A DNA stretch of 37,348 bases from a virus, in IMG/VR virus record IMGVR_UViG_3300032180_000023, positions 1-37,348 of that record, one strand, 5' to 3'. Shown piece by piece: positions 6,842 through 36,915 of this stretch; the first letter of the stretch is position 1, and every line of letters begins with the position of its first letter. The position numbers were made by a program, and so were the translations under genes. The notes beneath the pieces were generated by a model. The model made no database searches, was not told where the DNA came from, and was given only the letters and a program-made list of their open reading frames with translations.

Positions 6842-8350
6842 ATGTCAGTTACTACAACATCAGTTTTACCCGCCCCAATTCAGCAATCTTTTAGTTTCAA
6901 GCTATTATCGGTACCAGTACCGTATATGATCCACAAGATCCCAGCTGACCTGAAAGCTATGCCAAGAAACGGCGGTACAACTCTTAGAATGCGACGCTAT
7001 AATCCATTAGCGACCGCACCTGTTCCATTGGGGAATAGTGGGATTACTCCTGCTCCTCAGACTCTCACCGCTATTAACATAGACGCCGTGATGAGTTTTT
7101 ACGGAACTTATATCCTATTGAATGAGCAGGTAACTCTTCAAAACCAGGACCCTAAACAATATGGGGTCAATAAACCTTTGGTAATTGACTTGGAACCCTT
7201 CGCTATGGCAGCATAGAAAGGCAACAAGGGGCAAGATATGAAAAGAGAAGAACAAGTAAGAAATTTCCTTATAGAATTGATTGACATAAGGATAGGTCGT
7301 GGAAGTCTATCCGAAGCTATAGATCTTTTGATTCGTGTTTCCGAATTTCTTCTTAAAGAATATCAGCCTGAACGACTAAATCCAGGGGACGTTAGTGATA
7401 ACGGATGCGATAGTCTGAACTCTGCAGAAATGCAGAGAGGTGAATCCGAAGAGGTTTGCCCGCCATAGAAATATGGTCACGAAAGTAACAGAAAGGTATT
7501 AAACGAAGCGGCACAACGTCTCGGCGTTTCGCTTCGTCAGACAGAAGACCAACTTATGCGGGATATGCTTGCATCGACTGCTAGCTTTATCAACTGCACT
7601 GGTGGTGTAAACGGTGACAACCCAACTGAGATTACACGTTCCGACGTTGATACAGTTGTACGTACACTTCGAGGTAACAACGCATACTCATTCTTGAGTG
7701 GCGTGCAAGGCGAAAACAGGTTCGGTACAGCTCCAGTTCGTGATGCATACTTTGGCCTTGGCCATACTGACTTGATTGGTCAGTTGGATAACATCCAAGG
7801 TTTCATCCAGAAGTGGAACTACCCAAATCAGCAATCTACTCTTGATTCTGAGTGGGGTACTGTAGCCAACATACGCTTCTTGCTGTCTTCGATCGGTAGC
7901 ATTTCCGCTAACGCTTCGATGTTGCATGCAAACGTATACAATATCTTCTGTTCTGGGCGCGAAGCCTTCGCTAAACATAGTGGCGAAGTAAAACTTTCTC
8001 TGATTGACTCGGAAGCCCTAGAGGGTGACGAGGCGCAAGCCTTAATGGCAGCGTGAACGACTAAGTGAGAAGGCACCGAAAGGTGATGCAATAGTCTGAA
8101 CACGACGTATAAATGAAGGTCGTGAGGTGAAGTCGAAGAACTTTACCCGCCATGTAAAACAGTTTAACATGGTCACAAAAGTAACAGAATGGCAGTTGAG
8201 CAAGATGGATACTCTTCTCAGTTTATCTATCGTCCCCCAATTTATGATTCTGCATTGGCTCTCAACGCTAGTGTAGGGTACAAATTTGCGGAAGTTCCAA
8301 GAATCTTAAACGACACCTGGGTATTCAATCTCAGATGTACGTTGGCATAA
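6842..8350 (+). CDS. Major capsid protein (N4-gp56 family), split by two group I introns
   Basis: Three exons, 6842-7153, 7496-7972 and 8192-8350, join in frame into a 315-residue protein with N4-gp56-family features. The first junction restores NQDP+VLNEAAQRLG, matching the family's DPVLNEA segment. The second joins GREAFA to AVEQDGYSS. Each junction is a codon boundary. Read without splicing, exon 1 runs to a false stop at 7216 and exon 2 would need a false start at 7556 and stop at 8056. Function: the icosahedral head shell. Splice sites were placed from protein continuity plus the U-G pair at each 5' site. The downstream gene starts 13 bp after the stop with GGAGGA upstream. Confidence 0.93.
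7154..7495 (+). ncRNA. Group I intron 1 in the capsid gene
   Basis: 342 nt. P1 forms between the exon end GACCCT (7148-7153) and the internal guide GGGGTC (7163-7168), with the hallmark U-G at the 5' splice site. The R/S core strands that form P7 are CGACTA (7373-7378) and TAGTC (7411-7415). Between them is a P8 hairpin CGTTA-GTGA-TAACG (7390-7403). After S come a P9 hairpin (7420-7437) with a GAAA loop and another GAAA-capped hairpin (7463-7476). The intron ends in G7495. About 140 extra bases, compared with intron 2, lie before R and carry most of a small ORF. Confidence 0.9.
7238..7468 (+). CDS. Possible intron-encoded small protein
   Basis: 77-codon ORF wholly inside intron 1, starting at ATG 7238 with AAGGGG about 8 nt upstream. 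Residues 1-43 (MKREEQVRNFLIELIDIRIG and on to LLKEY) look like a real helical peptide and lie in the bases absent from intron 2. The rest is simply a reading of the ribozyme core. No LAGLIDADG, GIY-YIG or HNH motif is visible, so it is not a recognisable homing endonuclease. It could be a decayed or unrelated insert. Confidence 0.4.
   Translation: MKREEQVRNFLIELIDIRIGRGSLSEAIDLLIRVSEFLLKEYQPERLNPGDVSDNGCDSLNSAEMQRGESEEVCPP
7973..8191 (+). ncRNA. Group I intron 2 in the capsid gene
   Basis: 219 nt, a minimal intron without an ORF of its own. P1: exon end CTTCGCT (7966-7972) pairs over 7 bp with GGCGAAG (7982-7988), again with a U-G at the splice site. R is CGACTA (8058-8063) and S is TAGTC (8092-8096). 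P8 is CACC-GAAA-GGTG (8074-8085) and P9 is CACGAC/GTCGTG (8101-8124). The intron ends in G8191. It shares the 5' AAACA start, the GAACGACTAA and ATAGTCTGAAC core strings, and the 3' GTAACAGAA segment with intron 1, so the two are related. Confidence 0.9.
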
Positions 8351-36838: not shown

Positions 36839-36915
36839 GAGTAACCTTAGTTCAGTAAGTAGAGCCTTGGCCTTTATTATCCAAGAGACATAGGTGCAAT
36901 TCCTATAGGTTACTC
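36839..36915 (+). tRNA. tRNA-like RNA, short variable loop, non-canonical
   Basis: Five bases after the first tRNA-like RNA. 9-bp acceptor GAGTAACCT (36839-36847) with AGGTTACTC (36907-36915); canonical D arm GTTC-AGTAAGTA-GAGC (36850-36865); anticodon stem CTTGG/CCAAG (36866-36870, 36881-36885) around the 10-nt loop CCTTTATTAT; T stem ATAGG/CCTAT (36890-36894, 36902-36906) with loop TGCAATT. Conserved G19 and C56 equivalents are kept; the G18 and T55 positions are changed. The loop contains TTT and TTA, but the anticodon cannot be fixed with 10 loop bases. Confidence 0.6.

Follow-up and report, generated by a model that had tools for sequence, protein, structure and literature searches.

Positions 6842-8350 of the IMG/VR virus record IMGVR_UViG_3300032180_000023 (37,348 nucleotides (nt), the whole of which is called the window here) are best explained as an N4-gp56-type major capsid gene whose three exons are separated by two group I introns. 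We put the probability of this reading, made from the sequence, at about 95%. When the exons listed in Table 1 are joined, they give 948 nt, that is 315 codons plus a stop, with no internal stop codon, and thus a predicted spliced product of 315 amino acids (aa). An earlier note on this DNA had proposed the same arrangement, and its exon coordinates proved right to the base according to a spliced aligner and to intronless relatives. The aligner was provided with a protein profile, a 5' U, a 3' G, a bonus for AACAG and P1 pairing, and nothing else. Independently of the earlier note, it placed an insertion of 342 nt at 104.0 and another of 219 nt at 263.0 (104.0 meaning after codon 104, phase 0).

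Table 1. Predicted features of the capsid gene and its introns in the window.
Feature	Position	Strand	Evidence
Capsid exon 1, residues 1-104	6842..7153	+	Spliced alignment; no gap against intronless relatives
Group I intron 1, 342 nt, insertion site 104.0	7154..7495	+	Covariance model R1 77 bits, E 1.4e-18, outside training set
P1 of intron 1	7148-7153 GACCCU with 7163-7168 GGGGUC	+	U.G at splice site; sequence, P1/P10 scan
P10 of intron 1	7158-7162 AAUAU with 7496-7500 GUAUU	+	P1/P10 scan
P3 of intron 1	7175-7181 CCUUUGG with 7382-7388 CCAGGGG	+	Covariation in relatives
In-frame GCAGCA-TAG, putative degron of intron 1	7208..7216	+	Sequence
Intron 1 open reading frame (ORF), 76 aa, P6 insertion continuing into core	7238..7468	+	ORF list
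P7 of intron 1	7374-7378 with 7411-7415	+	Covariation in relatives
Capsid exon 2, residues 105-263	7496..7972	+	Spliced alignment; no gap against intronless relatives
Group I intron 2, 219 nt, no ORF, insertion site 263.0	7973..8191	+	R1 174 bits, E 2.4e-43, training sequence
P1 of intron 2	7966-7972 CUUCGCU with 7982-7988 GGCGAAG	+	Sequence, P1/P10 scan
P3 of intron 2	7994-8000/8067-8073	+	Covariation in relatives
In-frame GCAGCG-TGA, putative degron of intron 2, overlapping P6 3' strand	8048..8056	+	Sequence
P7 of intron 2	8059-8063/8092-8096	+	Covariation in relatives
Capsid exon 3, residues 264-315 and stop (8348-8350)	8192..8350	+	Spliced alignment; intronless relatives

The protein family assigned by the earlier note stood up to profile alignment. 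The spliced protein scored 141.6 bits against TIGR04387 (NCBIfam, N4-gp56 major capsid; curated cut-off 60 bits), while of the three raw pieces two stayed below the cut-off, at 47 and 54 bits, and the last had no match. Similarly, PHROG 1357 (major head protein) was matched at 2.8e-29 by the spliced protein and at 5e-9 and 6e-13 by two unspliced pieces, the last piece giving no match. Scanning IMG/VR with the spliced protein yielded 80 relatives, of which more than 40 carry the 315 residues in a single open frame, gap-free at residues 104/105 and 263/264. Intronless relatives (L001, L002 and others) are 84-92% identical over residues 1-315 with neither joint gapped, and TIGR04387 is matched by all 26 of 26 intronless relatives.

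Further information about the inserts was obtained from the introns of related phages. The claim of two related group I introns was upheld when the structure, the splice joints and the protein family were put to the test. The sequence bears out a U-G pair in P1 at both splice sites and a terminal guanosine (omega G, at 7495 and 8191). The core strands, P8 and P9 recognised earlier belong to a P3-P9 structure that covaries in 40 related introns: 96.5% of cells are paired in P3, P4, P5, P6, P7 (the pseudoknot), P8 and P9, covariation is 0.599 against 0.191 after shuffling (0 of 500 shuffles), and double changes occur in 29 of 38 pairs, P7 included. This covarying structure breaks down if shifted by one column. 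The covariance model R1, trained on 40 compact relatives of 178-226 nt after P1 trimming, matches just the two introns in the window. In intron 2 it aligns to 7991-8191; in intron 1 it aligns to 7343-7495 with the score of Table 1 and to the 5' half (7172-7326) with 20 bits, and the two parts are separated by a P6 insertion that contains the 76-aa ORF. Searches of Pfam and PHROG with this ORF gave no match, and its likeness to relatives lies mostly at the core overlap. Small non-endonuclease ORFs in the P6 region are also found in relatives (introns L120 52.1/79.0, L130 124.0 and L109 144.0); several of them are DUF551 (PF04448) and others CxxC proteins.

Some observations weigh against the capsid gene with two introns. 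The capsid fold prediction (AlphaFold, 26 relatives, HK97-like fold) reached a pLDDT of only 31, and P10 of intron 2 has only 2 bp in the P1/P10 scan. Moreover, the Rfam search proposed in the earlier note gave no group I match in the window, either at gathering thresholds or at E<=10. As the Rfam library also misses the capsid intron of mycobacteriophage LittleE, which is proven by reverse transcription PCR (RT-PCR), together with other introns of this family, we take its silence as low power for this subgroup and not as a refutation. A weak Rfam match to a group II domain (E 0.038, 7102-7174) and another to sX8 (E 4.1) were judged chance. The raw capsid gene has in-frame stops within the inserts, as a pseudogene or an assembly artefact might. 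We give such an explanation practically no credence: it is contradicted by the conserved spliced frame, the exons being intact and conserved, the inserts having a covarying ribozyme structure, and the same sites being filled in many independent assemblies.

The introns of the window belong to a widespread family. An intron 3'-end pattern and a protein scan produced, after filtering, 88 intron-bearing capsid genes; since these searches favour introns, counts from them are not population frequencies. Chains of short introns from spliced alignment of distant or truncated loci (L058, L099, L134, L155 and others) were spurious and filtered out. Full introns occupy 46 distinct positions of the 315-codon gene, and their pairing in their own P10 amounts to 3.18 bp against 1.06 in shuffled sequences. 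The earlier note called two introns in one phage capsid gene rare. Within this phage family they are not, as 40 of the 88 genes have at least two full introns and one gene has five, the maximum. The commonest insertion site is 104, and site 263 of the window is seen in no other gene of the sample. According to these sequences, the capsid gene of this phage group, with genomes of about 38-40 kb, appears to be a hot spot for group I introns, the family having apparently spread to at least 46 positions of one gene. Longer introns of the family contain LAGLIDADG-like ORFs. Related introns also occur in cultured phages of Nitratidesulfovibrio and in those of Roseobacter, where two annotated pieces of ribonucleotide reductase flank the intron. 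In some relatives the portal gene contains one related intron near residue 43 (L061:1193-1392, L119:5048-5242, L229:4031-4225, L096, L092).

Group I introns in phage structural genes have precedents. Splicing of the LittleE (Cluster J) capsid intron was proven by RT-PCR and N-terminal sequencing (PMC3706429), and R1 matches it weakly (16.7 bits, E 0.0032). As in our case, the intron lies in a phage capsid gene, after a 5' exon ending in U, and ends in G; unlike our case, it is a single intron with an endonuclease gene in an unrelated capsid family, and the available part of that report neither mentions coreless introns nor discusses a read-through tag (PMC3706429). The Twort structural (tail) gene contains three group I introns and undergoes exon skipping (Landthaler and Shub 1999, cited in PMC11878797 and PMC3073962). 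It thus resembles our case in having several similar introns in one structural gene and cross-talk between them, but it has three introns and is a tail gene, and the passages citing it describe neither coreless introns nor an in-frame degron. Genes of Bastillevirinae have up to two or three group I introns, with a tiny internal exon, exon skipping and an in vitro splicing assay; those genes are for DNA polymerase, terminase and nucleotide metabolism and not for capsid, and the introns average 802 nt (PMC11878797).

Many relatives of the window, but not the window itself, contain a further insert of 28-62 nt at codon 88. Each of these inserts has a perfect P1/P10 guide: its P1 is 6-8 bp long with U.G at the joint, and the guide runs on to pair with the insert's own 3' exon (4.62 bp; shuffled sequences give 3.32, with a maximum of 3.65 in 2000). 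From the guide to the terminal G there are 15-23 nt in the listed examples, leaving no space for a core. A guide-based scan, using exon and guide letters and no core sequence, found 106 stretches representing 89 distinct cases (examples are L069:6265-6320, L055:1116-1168, L282, L083 and about 85 others). An intron follows downstream in 87 of the 89, and the remaining two reach the contig end; a few of the downstream introns, truncated where their contig stops, were assessed from model matches or by eye. The downstream intron sits in almost every case at codon 96.2, 104.0, 104.2 or 116.2, at a distance of 26-86 nt, and the distances overall fall within 26-96 nt. Two loci that seemed exceptions to this order (L208 and L238) proved to have the beginning of an intron, its P1 at 116.2, with a long ORF leaving the contig. 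In the protein-based sample, a downstream intron was present in 19 of 80 genes, and all 6 small introns fell within those 19 (p = 9e-5). The converse does not hold, since full introns at 96.2 or 104.0, the one of the window included, are also found without the small insert.

According to this pattern, the coreless codon 88 introns of the relatives are probably cut out by the core of the next full intron downstream. In the simplest reading, the neighbour's core would take P1 of the small intron as a second substrate. Short inserts, often with a hairpin and an early stop codon and with lengths not multiples of three, could also be translational bypass elements of the T4 hop or yeast mitochondrial byps type. 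We consider bypassing quite improbable. It would not need a downstream intron, and no insert was seen without one, contig-end cases aside; each insert also has a U.G exactly at the joint, a terminal G and a guide that pairs with its own 3' exon. Furthermore, the coreless design appears in different letters at codon 81 (L150) and codon 104 (L195), and L077 has a full-length intron at codon 88 itself, with none downstream. Coreless introns removed by a neighbouring core would resemble the spliceozymes, group I ribozymes engineered for removal in trans, in that one core removes a coreless intron. Spliceozymes are artificial (PMC4094466), whereas in the relatives the guide is part of the small intron, and the putative core would be supplied by the intron that follows on the same mRNA.

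Translation in the exon frame into the introns of the window gave a second common feature. It reads KQYGVNKPLVIDLEPFAMAA-stop in intron 1 and KHSGEVKLSLIDSEALEGDEAQALMAA-stop in intron 2, ending in ...PFAMAA-stop and ...QALMAA-stop, respectively. Such an Ala-Ala-stop (AA-stop) is present in the exon frame in 40 of 124 distinct full introns and in the other frames in 0 of 248. Among introns fetched after the idea was formed, as a hold-out, the corresponding figures are 10 of 106 and 0 of 212. For at least 45 nt into the intron, the exon frame is open in 84 introns and the two other frames in 15 and 24; counted by insertion site, this is 31 against 3 and 5 (p = 4e-9). The motif occurs in two positions. 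In a P5 extension it is nearly always in frame; on the P6 3' strand it is partly structural. In the window, intron 1 has the P5-extension type and intron 2 the P6 type. Read-through of the mycobacteriophage introns proven by RT-PCR ends in ...ATAAA-stop in LittleE (L293, capsid) and ...LAAAAA-stop in BAKA (L294, tail); that of the Tuc2009 capsid intron and of the Roseobacter phage CRP-118 intron has no AA end.

In bacteria, tmRNA (ssrA) tagging adds a C-terminal ...AA that marks an incomplete protein for proteolysis. We lean towards the view that the read-through tags are an intron-encoded, ssrA-like degron on the unspliced capsid product. They would share the ...AA ending with the tags of the putative hosts (QAAA, ELMAA, EEAA), but it is the intron that would encode them, in the frame of the exon, and a normal stop would follow, without trans-translation. 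There are findings that speak against a degron. The motif of intron 2 of the window is located on the P6 3' strand, in which GCAGC has a partly structural role, besides being found out of frame in other introns; many introns of the family have early in-frame stops without AA; some motifs sit inside a CTGC-NTAA-GCAG hairpin that may be retained for RNA reasons; and the sequences are related, so that the counts above are not independent.

As an alternative to the degron, the in-frame motif could simply result from conservation of the intron RNA structure, in P5/P6 strands and hairpins. The late-position motif GCAGC[CG]TGA on the P6 3' strand, the type of intron 2 of the window, indeed occurs out of frame as well, and the hairpin holds the motif in several coreless introns and likewise in LittleE (CTGC-GTAA-GCAG). 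We find a purely structural origin unlikely, although it deserves serious attention. At the P5-extension position 30 full introns have the motif in the exon frame (two others counted there are P6-type by sequence). P5-type motifs occupy 19 sites, keep the exon frame for insertion phases 0, 1 and 2, and use many synonymous codons. As the frame holds for insertions between and within codons alike, the guide region must have been adjusted. Finally, coreless introns, which have no P5/P6, also carry the motif: among the long ones (at least 39 nt) it is in frame in 19 of 25 and out of frame in 1 of 50.

Taken together, the chances seem about even that the capsid gene hosts an intron community, in which degron-coding full introns coexist with coreless satellites served by the next downstream core. 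In the window, the two homologous compact introns would excise themselves from the capsid mRNA through the two transesterifications usual for such introns, and the 315-aa shell protein would result. A ribosome on unspliced mRNA would instead produce a truncated capsid fragment with an intron-encoded C-terminal Ala-Ala tag. This tag would mimic the ssrA tag, the host would degrade the fragment, and failed splicing would spare shell assembly. In the relatives, the coreless satellites, composed only of a P1/P10 guide and a terminal G, would render the downstream ribozyme core indispensable. Neither intron-encoded degrons nor coreless group I introns were found described in the open-licence literature searched.

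The hosts are probably environmental Chlamydiota, to judge from binning. When bacterial and archaeal genomes were scanned once, the capsid gene turned up on contigs of four Chlamydiota metagenome-assembled genomes (two Simkaniaceae, one Parachlamydiaceae and one Parachlamydia), which also bear the portal or neighbouring genes of the window. The same scan gave two probably misbinned contigs and one weak match. Relatives in Simkaniaceae and Parachlamydiaceae genomes are L298, L300, L301/L302 and L303. The tmRNA tags of three of the four genomes end in DLQAAA, AELMAA and YEEAA, endings similar in kind to those of the intron tags. Tailed phages of Chlamydiota would be notable in themselves.

Elsewhere in the window, the large terminase gene (240-1532) is on the minus strand, opposite to the portal and capsid genes. 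Positions 36841-36914 (plus strand) give an Rfam tRNA match of 44 bits, not reported by ARAGORN and with an odd anticodon loop, which may be what is left of an attachment site or else a divergent phage tRNA.

As gene callers and Rfam miss these introns, the capsid genes of such phages probably appear in annotations as broken pieces. Most group I introns are described as having an in-frame stop directly past the 5' joint as a shield from ribosomes (PMC3073962). Introns of this family often leave about 20 codons open in the exon frame, with an end resembling a proteolysis signal, which makes an intron-encoded quality control of the shell protein testable. If our reading of the coreless introns is true, they would be natural guide-only introns served by an adjacent ribozyme, and thus intermediate between self-splicing introns and those dependent on a machinery, such as the spliceosomal ones.
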